Of a stretch of 21,325 nt of DNA, positions 12,129 to 20,482 are shown piece by piece. The position numbers were made by a program, and so were the translations under genes. This stretch comes from a virus. The stretch spans positions 1 through 21,325 of the IMG/VR virus record IMGVR_UViG_3300044971_001457; one strand, written 5' to 3'. Each line of letters starts with the position of its first letter. Position 1 is the stretch's first letter. Below the pieces are notes generated by a model that worked only from the letters and a program-made list of their open reading frames with translations, made no database searches and was not told where the DNA came from.

Positions 12129-12949
12129 TTATATCTTTCCTTCCATTTTCTTTTGTAACCTTATTTGTTCTTGGTCAAATGATATTAAATAACTCAATTG
12201 ATTAAGTGATTCCATTATGTTTTTTTTATAGATGTACTCGTGTTTTGTAAAATCATTGTCAGCAATTTTGTTGACGACCAAAAACCAGCCGAACGACTTT
12301 TGGAAGGAATCTTGTAAATCATCCTCCACATTATCCATATCATCTTGATTGTTTCCCATTTCGATAGCTTCAAGGTCGAAGATGGTAGGGTAAAGTTGGA
12401 GAATGTCTTTGCGAATTTGATAAAAAAAAACTGTGCGCCAATCACGTACCTTACATCTAATCGTTTTTTAAACAATTCGGATCGTTCTTTCATCTTGGGT
12501 ATATCATATTCTTCTATCTTAAAGTTATGTTCACTTATCTCTTCCACTATTGGTCTATACATAATTGCTGCAAGTATGTGTAATAAATCCAATAATTCAT
12601 CTTCCTTCTTTGTTGAGATGGTATCCAAGTCAATAAATTCAGCAAAGGTTAAATCCCTCCAATTTGGAAAGAATCCATATTGTACTCCATCCAATTCAAA
12701 TCTATCCACAAATTTGGTTGTTTCTGTTGTGGGTAATGATTGCATTATACGGTAAGCCAAATAATTAATTTCCTCATATCCACCCTCAAGTAAATCCTTT
12801 TGTGGTGCTCCCGATACAATACTAATTAACTTTGATGCAAAGTAATCCTCTGAGAACAAATCCTTAATCTTATAAATCTTAACATAATTCTCAATTGACA
12901 TAAAGTCATCAATTACATATGGTTCACCTTCTATCTTAAATTTTATCAT
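12129..12949 (-). CDS. Tail-assembly-chaperone-like protein read across a -1 frameshift
   Basis: The first frame starts at ATG 12949, overlapping the TerL stop as ATGA, and would give 244 aa ending at 12215. After residue 176, however, its text becomes shadow-like (WETIKMIWIMWRMIY). The -1 frame from 12422 reads as normal protein (YQIRKDILQLYPTIFDLEAIE, an acidic DDMDNVEDD stretch, GWFLVVNKIA) to a stop at 12129. Shifting at the run of nine T gives one 273-aa product. The N-terminal part has FELDGVQYGFFPNWRDLTFAEFIDLD and MYRPI, which I associate with a conserved Bacteroidota phage protein. Size, position and recoding resemble lambda G/GT-type tail chaperones, but that function is inference. 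Alternatives are transcriptional slippage, a real frameshift mutation, or an assembly error in the homopolymer. Confidence 0.65.
12422..12430 (-). other. T9 slippery run at the frame change
   Basis: On the coding (minus) strand nine consecutive T follow CAG and encode Phe174-Phe176 of the upstream frame. Slipping back one base at TTT TTT gives TAT as the next codon and enters the -1 frame that extends to 12129. Homopolymers of this length are known substrates for ribosomal and RNA-polymerase slippage and are also common sites of sequencing error. Confidence 0.6.
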
Positions 12950-14274
12950 ACAAATGCAATGGCATATCGGCCAGTCGATTTTAAATTCTTTATTTCAAAA
13001 TACATCCTCATCATTAGTGCATCAGATAAATCGGGTGATTTACCCAATATCTTCTTCATATCATCTTTTGATTGAACTTGTACCTTATTATCTTTATCCA
13101 CATCCTTTAGCTTAACTGCTAATAGTTCCTGTGTTAATTCATCTATTGTTGCAGGGTCCATAATGTTTAGACTTATCTTTCCTTCCTTAAACAATTCAGA
13201 TAGTTTAATATAACATTGGGACTTTAAATTACTGAAGTTCTGTTCGTGTAATGGTCTTGAGTTGTTGACAAAGTTTGTACCTCTAATTTGGTCTGCAACT
13301 CCACCTCCAACGCCATCACTATCCACAATTACATTATTTGGGTGTACACCATACTTTGAAATAAGTTCCCTTATTTCGGACGATAATTCTGTGGTTGATA
13401 GTTTGGTATAGATAAGAACTTCTAATACAACCAGTCCATTCCAAACCACCGCCACGGACCTGTCTGAACCAAACCTTGCTACGTCCACGGAGATATACTT
13501 CTTATCGGTTCCTTGTGGAACACTTGAGAAAACACTATTGGATATACTATCAAAGTCAAATAGATTATCTGATTCATCCATATAGTTCCAATCACCTTCA
13601 AGTAGTCTTCGTTTCTGTGCTGGTGGTAATGACTTTAACATCTCAATATAAGATGGTGGTAAGTGTGGATTGTCAAGTGGTAGTGCTGGTACAAACGCTT
13701 TGTTTGATTCCAACGTATCCTGTATATATGGAAGATAGAACACTTTCTTTAACCATACTTGACCAGGGTTACAAGTCATCAATATCTTTGGTTGTAGATT
13801 ATACTCTGTTAGTTTAAATCTCATACGAGACTTTAGTATATTATAAGCCAATTGACTAATCTGTGCTGCTTCATCTACAAAGACTGCTGTAAGTTCCAAA
13901 CCTCCCAATGAATCAAAGTTAGGGTCTGATGGTTGGTATGCTAAATCCTTTAATACTATCTCAGACTTATTTGTGAACGTTATAACATTACTTTGTCCGT
14001 TATATACATAATGTTCCCCTGATTTTAATCCCATTGATTGTAGGGTCTCAAATAAAGTATTAAGAGTTGTTAGTTTTAATTGTTGTAATACTGTTCTTCC
14101 TATTAAACATCTAATCCCTTGATATTTTAAACATAATGTGGTAATCCATAAACAACCTAACCAAGACTTTCCCGCGCCAGCTGAACCTCCGTATAATACT
14201 TCGTTAGTTATATTATCCATTAGGAGTTTCCACGCTTGGGATTGTTTCTTTGTTAGATTAATGTTTACTTCCAT
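12946..14274 (-). CDS. terL: Terminase large subunit (packaging ATPase-nuclease)
   Basis: TerL pumps DNA into the prohead with an N-terminal ATPase and cuts concatemers with a C-terminal RNase H-like nuclease. Using ATG 14274 (442 aa), Walker A is GGSAGAGKS at residues 29-37, Walker B is AVFVDEA with D134/E135, and the coupling motif is TCNP at 167-170. Candidate nuclease acidic residues are D264 in SVDVARFGSD, D318 in VIVDSDGVGGG, and D415 or D418 in SPDLSDALM. All key elements are present, so the gene looks intact. The frame extends 7 codons further upstream to a TTG, but ATG 14274 follows the preceding stop with the local TAATATG pattern and is preferred. It overlaps the next gene by ATGA. 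Confidence 0.95.
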   Translation of the reverse strand: MEVNINLTKKQSQAWKLLMDNITNEVLYGGSAGAGKSWLGCLWITTLCLKYQGIRCLIGRTVLQQLKLTTLNTLFETLQSMGLKSGEHYVYNGQSNVITFTNKSEIVLKDLAYQPSDPNFDSLGGLELTAVFVDEAAQISQLAYNILKSRMRFKLTEYNLQPKILMTCNPGQVWLKKVFYLPYIQDTLESNKAFVPALPLDNPHLPPSYIEMLKSLPPAQKRRLLEGDWNYMDESDNLFDFDSISNSVFSSVPQGTDKKYISVDVARFGSDRSVAVVWNGLVVLEVLIYTKLSTTELSSEIRELISKYGVHPNNVIVDSDGVGGGVADQIRGTNFVNNSRPLHEQNFSNLKSQCYIKLSELFKEGKISLNIMDPATIDELTQELLAVKLKDVDKDNKVQVQSKDDMKKILGKSPDLSDALMMRMYFEIKNLKSTGRYAIAFV

Positions 14275-14275
14275 A

Positions 14276-14491
14276 TTAGTCTTCTCTTTTATCAAATAGG
14301 TCTTCTACTTTAGGACCTACACCATCCTCAACAACTGCAACCTGATTAAGGTATGCATACTTATTCACCATCCTATCAACATAAGTCTTTATTTGATCCT
14401 CAGTCATATTCTTGGTCCTTTCAATAAATTCCTTATGAATCTTTTCTCTTAATCTTTCTTGTTGTCTTTTGTACCTTCTATTTGCTGACAT
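14276..14491 (-). CDS. Small basic-to-acidic helical protein, 71 aa
   Basis: A 71-aa protein with a strongly basic N-terminus (RRYKRQQERLREKIHKE) and an acidic C-terminus (VEDLFDKRED), probably mostly alpha-helical. No family is recognised. It overlaps the upstream zinc-motif gene by 14 nt and stops one base before the TerL ATG, so it is translationally linked to packaging. A role as a nucleic-acid-binding or terminase-associated factor is possible from charge and position only. The start has an AAAAATATG context. Confidence 0.55.
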   Translation of the reverse strand: MSANRRYKRQQERLREKIHKEFIERTKNMTEDQIKTYVDRMVNKYAYLNQVAVVEDGVGPKVEDLFDKRED

Positions 14492-14748: not shown

Positions 14749-15477
14749 TTAATTTAAATACATAAAATTATAAGCTGACATATCAATTATGTCAATATCG
14801 TTATTTATATCACGATCCCATTTATCAGGGTCGTTTTTACTGTTACAATCTGATCTTCCTCTTTTACATCTATTCATCCAATCTTCTTTTGTTTTACTGT
14901 GGTAATGATTTATATACGCAACATCCATAGGACCATTTGGATTGAATGGACCATTAAATCTGTGACCATTTGTATCCATTGATAAATTATCAGTGTTGTG
15001 TGGTAATACCATTTTGTTATTAGATTTACAATTAACAATCACTTTAATGTGACCGTCTGTATTATTGTTTCTTTTTGTGAAAGTTTTAAGTAGTGAGTTA
15101 GAAGTTCTATTCAATATTCCACACGAACCATACATCACCCAAACTAATCCAATCACATCTGTCTTATCTTTATAGTCATTAATAAACTCTTTAATATTAT
15201 TGTGTTTCTTTAATATAATAAACTCATCACAATCATTAAATGCAACCCAATCATATTCTGTATTTGTATGTAGGAATGAATTATATACTTGTAACTGAAC
15301 TGCTTTACCATCCCATTCTCTCTTCTCTAAGAAAGGTCTTTCAATATCTGTTCTCCAATCGTTTTGATACATAATAATCTTATCAAACCCTAATTTGTAA
15401 TTGTAGTCTAACCATTCTTCTAAGTAATAGTCCTCCCTCTTTGCAACAACTACTAACGCTACTTTAATTGTGGACAT
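14749..15477 (-). CDS. Glycosyltransferase, GT-A fold (Glyco_tranf_2_4/GT92-like)
   Basis: The 242-aa protein starts IKVALVVVAKREDYYLEEWLDYNYKLGFDKIIMYQND, the usual opening of this family (KxE-x-YL-x-EWL-x-Y-x-LGFD). The metal/nucleotide-sugar DxD-type motif is in FNDCDEF (D82, D84). A late AYINHYHSKTKEDWMNRCKRGRSD around residues 188-211 matches the conserved NHYxxKS-x-EW-RG-D region. It transfers a sugar from a nucleotide donor; the acceptor is unknown. Possible acceptors are virion proteins, modified DNA or host surface glycan. It overlaps the preceding glycosyltransferase by 14 nt, so the two are co-expressed and may act in sequence. Confidence 0.85.
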   Translation of the reverse strand: MSTIKVALVVVAKREDYYLEEWLDYNYKLGFDKIIMYQNDWRTDIERPFLEKREWDGKAVQLQVYNSFLHTNTEYDWVAFNDCDEFIILKKHNNIKEFINDYKDKTDVIGLVWVMYGSCGILNRTSNSLLKTFTKRNNNTDGHIKVIVNCKSNNKMVLPHNTDNLSMDTNGHRFNGPFNPNGPMDVAYINHYHSKTKEDWMNRCKRGRSDCNSKNDPDKWDRDINNDIDIIDMSAYNFMYLN

Positions 15478-16045
15478 ATAATATTCTGTTTACCTTTTTT
15501 ATGTTTGCGTATTTAAACTTCTTTTGAAAGTCCTCAATGAAATACCAGTCAGCCCATTCGTGTTCTTTCTTTAGTTTTATTTTGTTTGCCATATTAGTCT
15601 TACACATAAAACTTCCTATATCTATCTTACCCAATTCTAATTTTGATTTGATTGGGATATACTCTTTGTTAATCCAATTATGAAGTAAGTCACAATAGAC
15701 AAAATGTTGGTTGGTACTTTCTTTTAACATTAGGTCCACAAACTCAGGGACATAGTAGTTATCCTCACCAGTCATTACCACCCATTCCTCTGTTGCATTA
15801 TTTAATCCGTATTGTCTTGGTGTATGTCCCCAATCATTATATCTCTCAGGTAGGATGGTAAGTTTAATCCTGTCATCATTAAAAAACTCCACAATGGTTT
15901 TCATTGCATCTTGTATCTCATCAGGTGGACAATCAGCAACGATGTGTGCTTTCCAATTTGGATTTGATTGTGCCATCAATGAACCAACGATGGTTATTAA
16001 ATGGTTTACTCTTGCGTAAGTTGGTATTATAAATTCTATTCCCAT
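15464..16045 (-). CDS. Glycosyltransferase family 2-like protein
   Basis: Starting at ATG 16045, the 193-aa protein begins with the GT2 nucleotide-binding strand (FIIPTYARVNHLITIVGSL). It continues with IVADCPPDE at 35-43 and the segment WGHTPRQYGLNNATEEWVVMTGEDNYYVPEF at 72-102. There GEDN (93-96) replaces the canonical DxD. WADWYFIEDF at 164-173 supplies a possible catalytic base. It is shorter than typical GT2 enzymes (about 250-300 aa), so it is a minimal catalytic domain. The frame can be extended two codons to a TTG, but the ATG is preferred. It lies between TerS and the second glycosyltransferase. Confidence 0.8.
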   Translation of the reverse strand: MGIEFIIPTYARVNHLITIVGSLMAQSNPNWKAHIVADCPPDEIQDAMKTIVEFFNDDRIKLTILPERYNDWGHTPRQYGLNNATEEWVVMTGEDNYYVPEFVDLMLKESTNQHFVYCDLLHNWINKEYIPIKSKLELGKIDIGSFMCKTNMANKIKLKKEHEWADWYFIEDFQKKFKYANIKKVNRILYVHN

Positions 16046-16061
16046 AGTCAAAAACGAAACA

Positions 16062-16080
16062 TTACTAACATTCTTAGTAA
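16062..16080. repeat. Perfect inverted repeat between TerS and the glycosyltransferases
   Basis: TTACTAA and TTAGTAA form a perfect 7-bp inverted repeat with a 5-base loop, between the TerS stop and the first glycosyltransferase start. A T run follows only on the + strand, where no gene would need terminating. On the minus strand only a weak U-rich tract follows. It may be an operator, an mRNA-processing or stability hairpin, or chance in AT-rich DNA. Confidence 0.4.
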
Positions 16081-16086
16081 ATTTTT

Positions 16087-16482
16087 TTAATCTTCTGTTA
16101 TATTAATATTAATTGATATGGGTTCTCCTCCTGAAGTTAAATCTATCTTCTTTGGTGATTCCATTCCTAATATCTTTGTTATATCTCTTAGAACTTCAGA
16201 TTCAACCCTACGGTTACCTGATAGTCTACAACGATTTAAAAGGTCATACAGACGATTTAATTGTTCGGATAGTATTTCCTCTTGGTTCTGTGCGTAACGT
16301 TCCTTTAAACGGTTCCTAACGTCCTTCCAGTAGTTTTCTGCCATCCTTACTGTTATACCCATTTCCTTTGAGAATTGATTCTTAAACTCATCATATGATT
16401 TTTTCTCATATAACATAAGTTCAAATGCACGATTCATTCTTTCCTCGTACTCTAATTCGTTTACTTTATTTTCTTTAGCCAT
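16087..16482 (-). CDS. terS: Terminase small subunit
   Basis: TerS recognises the packaging site and loads TerL. This 131-aa protein has an N-terminal helical HTH-like region (about 14-60, with YDEFKNQFSKEMGITVRMAENYWKDV), a charged oligomerisation-type helix region (60-105), and the characteristic C-terminal tail ILGMESPKKIDLTSGGEPI. The size is typical. It begins with AATATG, 1 nt after the stop of the previous gene. It is separated from TerL by two glycosyltransferases and two small genes rather than lying next to it. The assignment rests on the DLTSGGEPI-type tail, HTH, length and genome position. Confidence 0.8.
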   Translation of the reverse strand: MAKENKVNELEYEERMNRAFELMLYEKKSYDEFKNQFSKEMGITVRMAENYWKDVRNRLKERYAQNQEEILSEQLNRLYDLLNRCRLSGNRRVESEVLRDITKILGMESPKKIDLTSGGEPISININITED

Positions 16483-16483
16483 A

Positions 16484-16804
16484 TTATATTGAATTTACAT
16501 AGTTTGTAAACTTTCTTACTCTACCTCTTCCACAACCTTTACAGTTGAAGTTAAAGTCTTCACCGAATAAAAAGTTATACACCTTATTGATAAATATCTT
16601 TTTATCTTCCTTTACGCCACCAAATGATGTTAATTCTGCATATGCAAGTTTAATATCTTCTTTGGTTGGTATCCATATTGCTTCGTAATCAACTGTTGGT
16701 AGTGGTTCATTTATTTCTTTTTTCTTCTTACAGTCTGTACATCCTTTTTTCTTTTTACCAGGATTTTCAATTGAGTTTAGTTTTAGTTTCTCTAATCTTT
16801 CCAT
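16484..16804 (-). CDS. Small four-cysteine phage protein, 106 aa
   Basis: Contains a Lys-rich N-terminus followed by CTDC (C22, C25) and a C-terminal CKGCGRG (C88, C91), which together could bind one zinc ion. Between them is WIPTKEDIKLAYAELTSFGGV and VYNFLFGEDF, a pattern I recall from small proteins upstream of TerS in Bacteroidota phages; no function is known to me. GGAAG lies just before the ATG. It stops 1 nt before TerS, so it may be linked to packaging. A zinc-structured DNA-binding role is speculative. Confidence 0.55.
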   Translation of the reverse strand: MERLEKLKLNSIENPGKKKKGCTDCKKKKEINEPLPTVDYEAIWIPTKEDIKLAYAELTSFGGVKEDKKIFINKVYNFLFGEDFNFNCKGCGRGRVRKFTNYVNSI

Positions 16805-16825
16805 ACTTCCGTGTTTGTCTATGTT

Positions 16826-16918
16826 TTAGTTCCGAGTTTGTCCACTTATTGGTTCTAGTATTGTTGGTGTTACCACAGGCAATACTATCTCTGGTTTCTT
16901 TTTACAATTGCATCCCAT
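16826..16918 (-). CDS. 30-aa Cys-containing microprotein (MGCNCKKK...)
   Basis: ATG 16918 lies one base after the stop of the methyltransferase gene, and the frame runs 30 codons to TAA at 16826. The product begins MGCNCKKKPEI and is Pro/Thr-rich afterwards. Spacing equals that of real genes in this operon, and it fills most of the otherwise empty gap 16805-16919. Short proteins beginning MGCNCKK occur repeatedly in Bacteroidota phages as far as I recall; function is unknown. The CxC pair could bind metal. Confidence 0.5.
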   Translation of the reverse strand: MGCNCKKKPEIVLPVVTPTILEPISGQTRN

Positions 16919-16919
16919 C

Positions 16920-17465
16920 TTAAACCTTATTTAACTTTAATGGTTCAAATGGACGGTACCCGTGCAGAACACCTTGATAATCAATATCCAAATGATCAAA
17001 GTTATAATACTCCAACTTGAAACCTGCTTCGGTTAGTTTGTTCTCACAAGATATTAGACAAGATAAATTATGGTACTCAATACCAATCTGTTGAACTGAT
17101 TCTAAATAAGATACATCTAATGCGTTGATGAGTATCTCACTACCCTCAATGTCCATCTTAACTACCTCAGGTTTATAATACCCAAGGTATAGTTCAAACT
17201 TCTCAATCCTATCTACCATATCCATAATGGGTAGGAAGTTCTTTACAACGTAATTCTGTTTGAACCAGTCATATGATTGTTTATCACTATCAATACCCAC
17301 AACATTCTTTGCTTTCATATTCTGCAAGAAATGCCAAGGTGTTGGTGTAAATTCTGAGTTTATTCCACATCCTAAATCTAATACCGATTTACCTTCTACA
17401 TTTAAAAATCCCCAATGTATGTCTGGTGATTCACTTGTGATTGTTCCTTTTACTAATCTATCCAT
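16920..17465 (-). CDS. FkbM-family SAM-dependent methyltransferase
   Basis: A Rossmann-fold methyltransferase of 181 aa. SAM-binding motif I is SVLDLGCG at residues 27-34, motif II is VVGIDSDK at 55-62, and the FkbM signature is VVKMDIEGSE at 101-110, followed by QIGIEYH. FkbM enzymes often O-methylate sugars or polyketides, so with two glycosyltransferases downstream in the operon a glycan-capping role is likely, although the substrate cannot be read. It starts 2 nt after the sigma-like gene and is followed one base later by a 30-aa ORF. The start has AGATATG. Confidence 0.85.
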   Translation of the reverse strand: MDRLVKGTITSESPDIHWGFLNVEGKSVLDLGCGINSEFTPTPWHFLQNMKAKNVVGIDSDKQSYDWFKQNYVVKNFLPIMDMVDRIEKFELYLGYYKPEVVKMDIEGSEILINALDVSYLESVQQIGIEYHNLSCLISCENKLTEAGFKLEYYNFDHLDIDYQGVLHGYRPFEPLKLNKV

Positions 17466-17467
17466 AT

Positions 17468-17986
17468 CTATTTGTTTAATTTATTAATAATATTTGTTCT
17501 AATTGTATCCTTGCCTTCCCTAATATAACGAGAAATTGATGTTAAGGGAATAGTTGTCTTCTTAGATACTGCCTTCAATGAGTTGAGAGTTAGGTACATA
17601 TCCAATAATGATTTGTGGAACCAATTTAATTCAGCATAGTTCTCCTCCAATAATTGATATAGTTCCTCCGTTTCAAATAGTTCTTGTTCCTCGCTCATAT
17701 TCATTGCTTCAGTTAAATCTGAATATAGACAACGTTCCTTTCTGATTCTATAATAGTATGGTGACGTTTGAGAATAATAATTAACCCTCATAATTGAAGT
17801 GATATAATACTTTATACTATCATCACCGTAGTCTTTTAACTTTATAACATCCCTTTGATATAATTGTAGAAATACTTCGTGGAGTAATTCCCTTGATGTT
17901 TCTTCATCCTTCTTAGTTATTTTCTTTGCTATTGCTAACAATAAGTAATAGTTTCTCGTGATGAAACAATCAATTCTTTTATCCAT
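17468..17986 (-). CDS. Sigma-70-family-like RNA polymerase sigma factor
   Basis: The 172-aa protein resembles a short ECF-type sigma factor. Residues about 13-75 match region 2 (LLLAIAKKITK...SRELLHEVFLQLYQR...IKYYITSIMRVNYYS). Residues about 113-168 match region 4 with an HTH (SLLDMYLTLNSLKAVSKKTTIPLTSISRYIREGKDTIR). Region 2 is divergent and lacks a clear -10 recognition helix consensus, so it may instead be a sigma-like transcription regulator. Located near the start of the packaging/virion operon, it is a candidate activator of late transcription by the host polymerase. Its start overlaps the upstream gene by 8 nt. Confidence 0.65.
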   Translation of the reverse strand: MDKRIDCFITRNYYLLLAIAKKITKKDEETSRELLHEVFLQLYQRDVIKLKDYGDDSIKYYITSIMRVNYYSQTSPYYYRIRKERCLYSDLTEAMNMSEEQELFETEELYQLLEENYAELNWFHKSLLDMYLTLNSLKAVSKKTTIPLTSISRYIREGKDTIRTNIINKLNK

Positions 17987-18233
17987 CTATTAGTTTTTTT
18001 ACATCCGTCAAGACTCCACATATTTCATATAGTTCTTCTTCTTGATTTGTTATTATTGAAGATTCAATTAATAACCCAAGTGCAAACATTCTATTAACCT
18101 CTGGATTTAATTGTTTATCTAATATTTCCAACATAAAGTTTAAAATTCCAATACATACAGCTTCCTTCTCCTCATCATTTAATTCAAAGTAGTCCGCAGG
18201 TATTTCAATTTCACTTAATTTAATTTTTTTCAT
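17979..18233 (-). CDS. Small acidic helical protein, 84 aa
   Basis: Unrecognised, mostly helical and acidic, without Cys clusters or membrane segments. It overlaps the upstream zinc-ribbon/HTH gene by 14 nt and the downstream sigma-like gene by 8 nt, implying coupled translation with two transcription-type proteins. A partner or anti-sigma-like role can be imagined from that alone and is not supported by motifs. Confidence 0.55.
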   Translation of the reverse strand: MKKIKLSEIEIPADYFELNDEEKEAVCIGILNFMLEILDKQLNPEVNRMFALGLLIESSIITNQEEELYEICGVLTDVKKLIDG

Positions 18234-18969
18234 AGTTTAACCATTTATAAATTGTTGTATCAGACAAACCCAATTCATCCGCAATATATTTATATGTTTT
18301 ACCTTTAATTCTTAAAGCAACTGCTTTATTAAAAATTTCCTTTTTTTGAGGATTACGCCACATCAAAAATGGATAATCTTCAAATGATTCTTTAGTTGGT
18401 TTAGTTTTGATATTAATAAATACTCCGTCGCTGGTCTTTATCCCATCCTTCCACCAAATTCCATTCTCTTCGTTGAGTTTCCATCCAATTGCTTTGAGAA
18501 TATTGTATGTTGCTTCCTTTTGATATTCATCAACCCATTCGCCAGGGTTTTCTTTGCGGTACAAACTACCACCATTTTCTTCTAGTTCTTTTAACCTATC
18601 TTTTTTTGACCTCTCAACTTCTTTTTTATTAACACAAGGTCTGCAATCCAAATAAGTTTTCTTTGAACTTTGATAATAATAATATTCTGATTTTAATTTC
18701 CATTCCTGACAAGTTCTACATTGTTTATAGTTCTTATCATTGGATAGGTCTGGTTGTGATTCTTGGACTACTGGTTGAATTATCTCTGGTCTAATGGATA
18801 CTTGTATCAATTTGGATTCTAATCGTTTTAAACGTCTTCTTTCGTTATGTTGAGTATTATGACATAATGTACATTCTTTTCTGATTCTAAATTTCTGCTG
18901 CGTTGAGTGCCAATACGTTTGAAATTCTTTATCTTCTTTATCAATTTTACATTTTGTACATATCTTCAT
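18220..18969 (-). CDS. Double zinc-ribbon protein with C-terminal helix-turn-helix, 249 aa
   Basis: From ATG 18969 the protein has two treble-clef/ribbon-like zinc sites: C4-x-x-C7 with C33-x-x-C36, and C84-x-x-C87 with C109-x-x-C112. Each is followed by a basic helix (HNERRRLKRLE; NKKEVERSKKDR). The middle (about 145-205) is unrecognised. Residues about 213-246 form an HTH (NKAVALRIKGKTYKYIADELGLSDTTIYKWL). It looks like a DNA-binding regulator or an endonuclease VII-like relative, though no His-Asn nuclease motif is evident. The frame can start at ATG 19005, but that codon lies inside a terminator stem, so 18969 is preferred. Confidence 0.65.
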   Translation of the reverse strand: MKICTKCKIDKEDKEFQTYWHSTQQKFRIRKECTLCHNTQHNERRRLKRLESKLIQVSIRPEIIQPVVQESQPDLSNDKNYKQCRTCQEWKLKSEYYYYQSSKKTYLDCRPCVNKKEVERSKKDRLKELEENGGSLYRKENPGEWVDEYQKEATYNILKAIGWKLNEENGIWWKDGIKTSDGVFINIKTKPTKESFEDYPFLMWRNPQKKEIFNKAVALRIKGKTYKYIADELGLSDTTIYKWLNYEKN

Positions 18970-18990
18970 TATAAATATCTGCGTTTTAAC

Positions 18991-19039
18991 CAAAAATCCC
19001 AGCATCGTAGGAAAATGGAAGCTAACCTAGTGCTGGGAT
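18991..19039 (-). terminator. Rho-independent terminator after the nuclease gene
   Basis: On the minus strand the 9-bp arms ATCCCAGCA (19039-19031) and TGCTGGGAT (19004-18996) pair perfectly. An inner TAGG/CCTA helix and a loop lie between them, and five T follow at once if the last stem T is counted. It sits 48 nt after the stop of the nuclease-like gene and upstream of the zinc-ribbon/HTH gene, so it separates two transcription units or acts as an attenuator. Confidence 0.75.
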
Positions 19040-19752: not shown

Positions 19753-20307
19753 CTAGTTTTTATTTAATTGTTTTAGTTCTTGTTTTTGTTGATATTCAAA
19801 TTTTAATAATTCATTTCTTTGTTCTGGTGTTAATTCATCAAAAGGTTTATCAGGTATTTCCTTATCTAATTCCTTATGTGGTAATTTATTTAATTCATTA
19901 TTTAATATAGGGTATATAATACTGCCAACTCCACCGACTAATGAAGTGTCGGAGTACCGACTAATACCGTTCGGTTTACCGACTAATGGGTTCGGAGTAC
20001 CGACTAACCTATTCGGTTCACCGACCATCTTCAATGGAACGATAGTTCTTCTTTCTTTACCATTTACCATTACTCTTTCACATTTAATATAACCTAATGT
20101 TTCCAATTTGGTAATTCGTTCACTTGCGGTGGTTCTACTTACTCCCAACATATAACCCAATTTACTATTGGATATATATACCTCTTTGTTATTATTGTGA
20201 AATGAATAGATTAGTGCAAGTGTCATCTTATCACTATCCTTCAATTCTTTGTTCTGCAAAATGGTATATGGTACCATTAAGAATTGTTCTTCTGTTTTAT
20301 TTTTCAT
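19753..20307 (-). CDS. Winged-helix replication-initiator-like protein with repeat linker
   Basis: Residues about 8-92 form a winged helix like those at the N-terminus of phage replication O/DnaD-type proteins. FLMVPYTILQNKELKDSDKMTLALIYSF is followed by the HTH ISNSKLGYMLGVSRTTASERITKLETLGYI at 45-74 and wing KCERVMVNGKERRTI. Residues 95-115 are three 7-residue repeats VG-x-PN-x-x, encoded by iteron-like DNA. A degenerate copy (SLVGGVG) follows near 122-128. The C-terminal tail is acidic then Gln/Lys-rich and could bind a helicase loader. By analogy with lambda O, the protein may bind an origin within its own gene. A phage repressor or plasmid Rep-like role is the alternative. Start ATG has AGATATG. 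Confidence 0.7.
   Translation of the reverse strand: MKNKTEEQFLMVPYTILQNKELKDSDKMTLALIYSFHNNNKEVYISNSKLGYMLGVSRTTASERITKLETLGYIKCERVMVNGKERRTIVPLKMVGEPNRLVGTPNPLVGKPNGISRYSDTSLVGGVGSIIYPILNNELNKLPHKELDKEIPDKPFDELTPEQRNELLKFEYQQKQELKQLNKN
19934..20028 (-). repeat. In-gene iteron array (candidate replication origin)
   Basis: On the minus strand the unit TTAGTCGGT-N3-CCGA recurs with start-to-start spacings of 21, 21, 22 and about 23 bases. Four copies contain the dyad TCGG-N4-CCGA: 19949-19960, 19971-19982, 19992-20003 and 20013-20024. A fifth half-copy lies at 19934-19941. The array is clearly GC-richer than its surroundings, and AT-rich DNA lies just downstream (19895-19930). Regular two-turn spacing plus a dyad suits binding of a winged-helix initiator. 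That it is an origin is inference. Confidence 0.6.
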
Positions 20308-20400
20308 ATCTAATAAAAAAGGGTCATCAAATACTCACTGTGCTTCACTTCAGTTTTCTTTGACAACCCTTAAAATCTTTAATGTCCGTATTGTGAAGCA
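20308..20400 (-). promoter_or_regulatory. Structured 5' leader of the winged-helix gene
   Basis: The minus strand between about 20400 and the ATG at 20307 holds two hairpins with complementary loops. Hairpin 1 has a short GTCC/GGAC stem whose loop carries TGCTTCAC (20400-20393). Hairpin 2 is the terminator-like stem whose apical ACTG/CAGT helix displays GTGAAGCA (20348-20341). The 8-base match allows a kissing interaction or an antiterminator pairing that competes with the terminator stem. No minus-strand gene lies just upstream to need a terminator, so attenuation of the downstream gene is the simplest reading. Confidence 0.45.
20315..20371 (-). terminator. Attenuator-like terminator hairpin in the leader
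   Basis: AAGGGTTGTCAAA (20371-20359) pairs with TTTGATGACCCTT (20331-20319) over 13 bp including two G-T pairs. The loop is 27 bases and a run of six T begins at the stem end. The run finishes only 7 bases before the ATG of the winged-helix gene. The other strand has no T run, so it would act on minus-strand transcription. Confidence 0.5.
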
Positions 20401-20482
20401 GGACTTATATATTGTAAATATACATATTTTTTTCAAAAGATAAAATTTTTGTCAAATATTTTTTTATTTCAAATAATTTATG

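Follow-up and report, generated by a model that had tools for sequence, protein, structure and literature searches.

The initiator gene and its surroundings

The window analyzed here is the whole of a 21,325-bp virus DNA record (IMGVR_UViG_3300044971_001457). The locus of interest comprises a replication initiator gene, a set of short dyad repeats (iterons) inside that gene, a conserved element and an AT-rich stretch in the flank of the repeats, and a structured leader RNA upstream (Table 1). The large terminase of the record shares 48% identity with its counterpart in Flavobacterium phage 11b, and based on this likeness, the host of the virus is probably a flavobacterium.

Table 1. Features of the initiator locus and neighboring genes, in plus-strand positions of the window
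Feature	Position	Strand	Remark
Replication initiator gene, 184 aa	19753..20307	-	Pfam, PHROG, AlphaFold2 model, Foldseek
Iteron 1, GTCGGTGAACCGA	20013..20025	-	Read as VGEPN
Iteron 2, GTCGGTACTCCGA	19992..20004	-	Read as VGTPN
Iteron 3, GTCGGTAAACCGA	19971..19983	-	Read as VGKPN
Iteron 4, GTCGGTACTCCGA	19949..19961	-	Identical to iteron 2, one base out of frame, read as SRYSD
Half iteron, GTCGGT	19933..19938	-	23 bp after iteron 4, in frame again
Conserved element, GTTGGCAGTATTATATACCCT	19909..19929	-	Encodes VGSIIYP
AT-rich stretch, four imperfect 12-mers, consensus near TTAGATAAGGAA	19858..19905	-	Candidate DNA-unwinding region
Structured leader RNA, about 92 nt	20313..20405	-	Just upstream of the initiator start codon
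Loop of leader hairpin 1, TGCTTCAC	20393-20400
Loop of leader hairpin 2, GTGAAGCA	20341-20348
TATATTTAC	20414..20422	-	Resembles the Bacteroidota promoter -7 element; 9 nt before hairpin 1
Gene with endonuclease-VII/HNH-like stretches	18220-19005	-
Gene for a 172-aa protein	17468-17986	-
Glycosyltransferase-like and methyltransferase-like genes	14749-17465	-	By sequence look only
Small-terminase candidate	16087-16482		By position and sequence look only, unsupported by PHROG profiles; nearer the large terminase gene than the initiator gene
Large terminase gene	12946-14295		About 5.5 kb from the array

The initiator consists of a winged helix (residues ~10-92), a disordered stretch (residues 95-150), and a C-terminal helix (residues 161-183). 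In the AlphaFold2 model (mean pLDDT 61), the wing domain and the C-terminal helix are moderately confident, and the disordered residues are those encoded by the iterons and their flank. The protein matches PF13730 (HTH_36; E = 2e-8, 34.3 bits versus a gathering threshold of 25) and PHROG profiles for replication initiation, DnaD-like, and O-like proteins; the O-like match (E about 2e-5) covers the wing part only and is weaker than those to other initiator families. The best PDB folds found by Foldseek are staphylococcal RepA_N initiators (4pql, 4pt7, and 5kbj, including a Rep-DNA complex), followed by DnaD, and the viral fold matches include phage replication initiators and replisome organizers. 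RepA_N (PF06970) is not among the Pfam matches up to E = 1, so the likeness to these plasmid proteins is one of fold only. An earlier note made from the DNA letters had proposed a winged-helix initiator candidate, and the PHROG profiles and the predicted fold bear this out; its comparison with lambda O is a good functional analogy but does not name the closest relative, as the fold and HTH_36 point to RepA_N/DnaD-like initiators.

Several neighboring genes can be described from their sequences. The gene with two endonuclease-VII/HNH-like stretches also has a C-terminal HTH and is kept downstream of the initiator cassette in many relatives. The 172-aa protein is very weakly sigma-70-region-2-like, with similar-looking genes in several relatives, and it is possible that it is a phage sigma factor. 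Two glycosyltransferase-like genes and one methyltransferase-like gene sit between the early genes and the terminase.

The iteron array and its AT-rich flank

The dyad TCGG-N4-CCGA occurs exactly at the first positions listed for the four iterons in Table 1 (plus strand) and nowhere else in the 21,325 bp. Allowing one mismatch gives 5 matches versus 0.57 expected, and 0 of 100 shuffles had as many as 5. The spacing along the gene is 21, 21, and 22 bp and then 23 bp to the half copy. This is the only array in the record with at least three copies at a spacing of 20 to 24 bp, and no second one was found there. The exact and mismatch counts, together with the shuffles, confirm what the earlier note had described, namely, four dyads plus a half copy at 21- to 23-base spacing within one gene.

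When viral contigs were searched at the protein and DNA level, relatives with identities between ~31% and 96% came up, as did one near-identical contig. Ten related genes (repeats within one contig family are not independent) have three to five dyads each at the same place, right after the wing, 21 to 23 bp apart. The dyads come in three sequence versions: TCGGT/ACCGA in the window, L014, L015, L016, L040, and L087; GGTCG/CGACC in L017, L018, and L029; and TCGTC/GACGA in L007 and L020. In the alignment of relatives, the recognition helix varies along with the repeat version, as would be expected if the protein reads the repeats. No relative of the window's initiator was found in the bacterial genomes searched. 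Four DNA-pattern matches (L035, L036, L037, and L044) have no reading frame for an initiator and were set aside as chance hits.

Is it the peptide or the DNA that is conserved? Iterons 2 and 4 share an identical 16-mer (TTAGTCGGTACTCCGA), which is read as VGTP in copy 2 and, one base out of frame, as SRYSD in copy 4. A frame shift of this kind is also seen in L014, L015, L016, L017 (where it falls in the fifth copy), L018, L029, L040, and L087, and all three frames are in use for the unit in L007 and L020 (giving VSS, GIV, and GYRP/GYSP). By the end of the array, the frame is restored (in the window, over 87 bp, i.e., 29 codons). The earlier note had held that the iterons encode VG-x-PN repeats with the reading frame kept throughout; the peptide is present in three copies but not in the fourth, and the frame is kept over the whole array but not between copies. 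When codons were shuffled synonymously, the observed self-similarity was reached in 1 of 1,000 shuffles of the window gene and in 0 to 1 of 1,000 for seven relatives.

Because identical DNA is read in different frames and synonymous shuffles lose the self-similarity, these comparisons indicate that selection keeps the iteron DNA, that is, that the iterons are conserved as DNA beyond the protein's needs and that the peptide is not the conserved thing. The note's own proposed check, whether iteron DNA is conserved beyond what the amino acids require, thus has a positive answer: homologues keep the dyads while frame and peptide change. Counted over the whole gene, generic 4-4-4 dyads do not outnumber those in shuffles; symmetry was assessed at the iterons alone, and several of these are imperfect dyads. 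Within the iteron stretch, synonymous identity per codon is not elevated (54% versus 57%), and given that frame and alignment shift inside this stretch, it is the frame argument that carries the case. One DNA unit read in several frames provides a clean computational argument that in-gene arrays are kept as DNA.

Directly downstream of the array is a GTTGGC-N3-ATTATATACCCT element whose synonymous codon identity across three clades is 73/83, compared with 300/529 for the winged helix. AT content is 77% in the 60 nt scored beyond this element. Among the 10 relatives, leucine is encoded by TTA in 35 of 39 cases in those 60 nt, compared with 24 of 90 in the part preceding the array and 32 of 66 in the part beyond those 60 nt; the genes are related, so that Fisher p-values overstate this comparison, and the excess over the pre-array part has the same direction in every gene. 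The AT-rich 12-mers look like a candidate unwinding element, and part of their repetition could reflect selection on an LDKE-type helix because they are in frame.

Probable origin function and known in-gene origins

The array is, very probably, the replication origin of the phage, located inside the gene of its own initiator, with binding by the wing, melting of the flank, and recruitment of a helicase or primase. This reading is supported by the repeats, by their being kept as DNA in different frames, by a protein whose sequence and predicted fold are of the initiator type, and by the constraint on the AT-rich flank, and we infer that replication start, binding, melting, and recruitment take place at the array. 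In this model, the winged-helix domain, probably as dimers, would bind the four dyad iterons, which, being two helical turns apart, would present themselves on one face of the DNA. The protein would load beside the conserved ATTATATACCCT element and the AT-rich 12-mers, whereupon the 12-mers would melt, and the C-terminal helix, carried on the flexible iteron-encoded linker, would bring in the host helicase or primase. Recruitment from the host is assumed because no obvious helicase or loader gene was seen in the window or its two longest relatives (32 and 28 kb; reading frames inspected, with profile scans covering part). Most relatives are metagenome fragments, so this absence proves little. 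The GC skew of the record marks no origin.

Could the dyads instead be an operator, at which the protein binds its own gene only for transcriptional shutdown, with the origin elsewhere? The winged-helix domain is weakly similar to MarR/Lrp-type regulators and the array sits in a transcribed unit, but the site is ~280 bp inside the gene and far from the likely promoter, the best PHROG matches are replication-initiation profiles (with a single weak regulator match), and the constraint on the adjoining AT-rich codons would be left unexplained. We therefore consider a purely regulatory role improbable; autoregulation may well occur in addition to the origin role. Could the dyads be a packaging (pac) site to which a wing protein akin to a small terminase binds? 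In some phages, pac sites are known inside the gene of the DNA-binding subunit (e.g., the small terminase gene), but here the large terminase gene is about 5.5 kb from the array and has another small-terminase candidate closer to it (Table 1), and the protein matches initiators rather than terminases by both PHROG and fold, making a pac site very improbable. Least credible of all is that the repeats are a VG-x-PN peptide linker whose DNA similarity follows from the protein, an account that fits three of four copies and is refuted by identical DNA copies in different frames (all three in L007 and L020), by the loss of similarity in synonymous shuffles, and by the predicted disorder of the linker.

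If the array is an origin, how unusual is its placement? An origin inside its own initiator's gene is a layout already known from other phages and plasmids: pSK41 Rep, lambda O, SPP1 gp38, and genes of Firmicutes phages share in-gene boxes or repeats, and the placing of the window's array among them is well supported. In pSK41, the N-terminal wing binds the Rep boxes, which are inside the rep gene, and the linker encoded by these boxes is dispensable; the N-terminal HTH_36 domain of pPR9 Rep is similar to a phage replication protein (PMC5703833). The window initiator is like pSK41 Rep in its winged-helix N-terminal domain, its four boxes in the middle of the gene, and its origin-encoded linker, and pSK41 rep also has a regulated leader region upstream (PMC5703833), although pSK41 uses an antisense RNA, whereas the leader of the window has an internal loop-loop helix. 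The window protein differs in belonging by sequence to HTH_36 and not to RepA_N, and it is short (184 aa), with a large DnaG-binding C-terminal domain not in evidence.

The likeness to lambda O and ori-lambda is one of layout, i.e., four iterons, each an inverted repeat, midway along the initiator gene with an adjoining AT-rich tract (PMC7466680); in contrast to lambda, there is no close sequence relation beyond the weak O-like PHROG profiles, and no P-like loader gene was noticed beside the window initiator. SPP1 likewise has direct repeats and an AT-rich unwinding element inside gene 38 (oriL), bound by the gene product gp38 (PMC6316719), but SPP1 has two origins along with a loader and a helicase of its own, whereas no second array was found in the window record. 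Finally, the window protein is 25 to 33% identical to HTH_36/DnaD-like proteins of the Firmicutes phages phiPYB5, D7138, LJ, SE-1, c5, and PLgT-1, which include phages of lactic acid bacteria. Of these six initiator-type genes, five bear the annotation of a replication protein or DnaD and one that of a helix-turn-helix protein; they have two to four in-gene repeats right after the wing, mostly 22 to 24 bp apart. Their proteins are longer and their repeat sequences different from the window's, and in two of these phages, unlike in the window, a DnaC- or helicase-type gene directly follows the initiator-type gene.

With an origin at the array, the initiator genes known to contain their own origin would come to include some from uncultured phages that probably infect Flavobacteria. 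The rule of a wing domain followed by repeats every 21 to 23 bp and then an AT-rich stretch could be of use for finding origins in phages that lack annotation; wing and repeats held in two initiator groups, and the AT-rich flank was examined in the window's family.

The leader RNA and the genes behind it

The leader RNA has a small hairpin 1 (GTCC/GGAC) and, before a T run, a long hairpin 2 that resembles a terminator, and the loops of the two are joined by an 8-bp loop-loop helix (TGCTTCAC with GTGAAGCA), which is fully kept in six genomes through double changes. A scan of viral contigs for part of the leader motif gave 39 stretches, about 30 of them with loop-loop complementarity, and a covariance model from which the loop-loop pairs had been left out found 36 matches (including training sequences and repeats of one contig). 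In the alignment of these 36 matches, every one of the 224 loop-loop cells is paired, and 44 two-sided changes are seen among them; the whole structure has 96% of its cells paired, a share that drops to 36 to 47% when it is slid by 1 to 3 columns. Rfam 15 gave no match at the gathering threshold for five leader sources and none up to E = 5 for the window leader. None of 51 DNA matches to the leader pattern in bacterial genomes holds the RNA, nor was it found in known phages or, by the covariance model, in the GGTCG/CGACC group (L017, L018, and L029). The leader is apparently an undescribed structured RNA common to dozens of related phages. The consensus of the Bacteroidota promoter -7 element is TAnnTTTG, from which we infer that TATATTTAC is such an element; similar motifs accompany most copies of the leader RNA.

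What lies behind the leader? About 30 initiator-like genes, belonging to several families unrelated to one another, follow it, with the start codon within ~10 nt of the leader in nearly all copies (in L015, L020, and L063, a small gene comes first). In some copies, including the distant L086, this gene is an initiator of the window's family. A second wing family occupies the position in L056, L057, L060, L061, L063, and L082 and has in-gene repeats at 22 to 23 bp in L056, L057, and L060. In further copies, the gene behind the leader is of another kind: the genes of L067 and L062 (the latter Lin1244-type) match PHROG profiles for replication initiation, others are DUF6291-type, and L070 and L072 have yet other genes there. 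No iterons were found in the DUF6291-type genes, L067, or the Lin1244-type L062. Unrelated initiator-type genes thus share one slot behind the leader (L056, L057, L060, L062, L067, L080, and others), and the downstream genes are syntenic.

Between the window and L067, the next genes are 69, 60, and 77% identical, and between the window and L056, they are 55, 72, and 48% identical; in both comparisons, the initiators do not match at E 1e-3. Because the initiators differ while the following genes stay, it looks as if initiator-origin cassettes are exchanged behind a fixed leader. We tentatively suggest, as a possibility on which opinion could fall either way, that the ~92-nt leader is a new phage RNA family, promoter proximal in an early operon, that would control read-through into initiator-origin cassettes, each swapped between phages as a single unit while the RNA and the downstream genes stay. 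If this is true, the leader RNA would be a general switch or dosage control for replication and not part of one replicon; an RNA that matches no known family may thereby control the replication of many phages.

DUF6291 and related genes stand in the initiator slot in L055, L064, L066, L068, L076, L077, and L080, several of them with KEKD/KEKE low-complexity tails, and DUF6291 may be an initiator family without detectable iterons.
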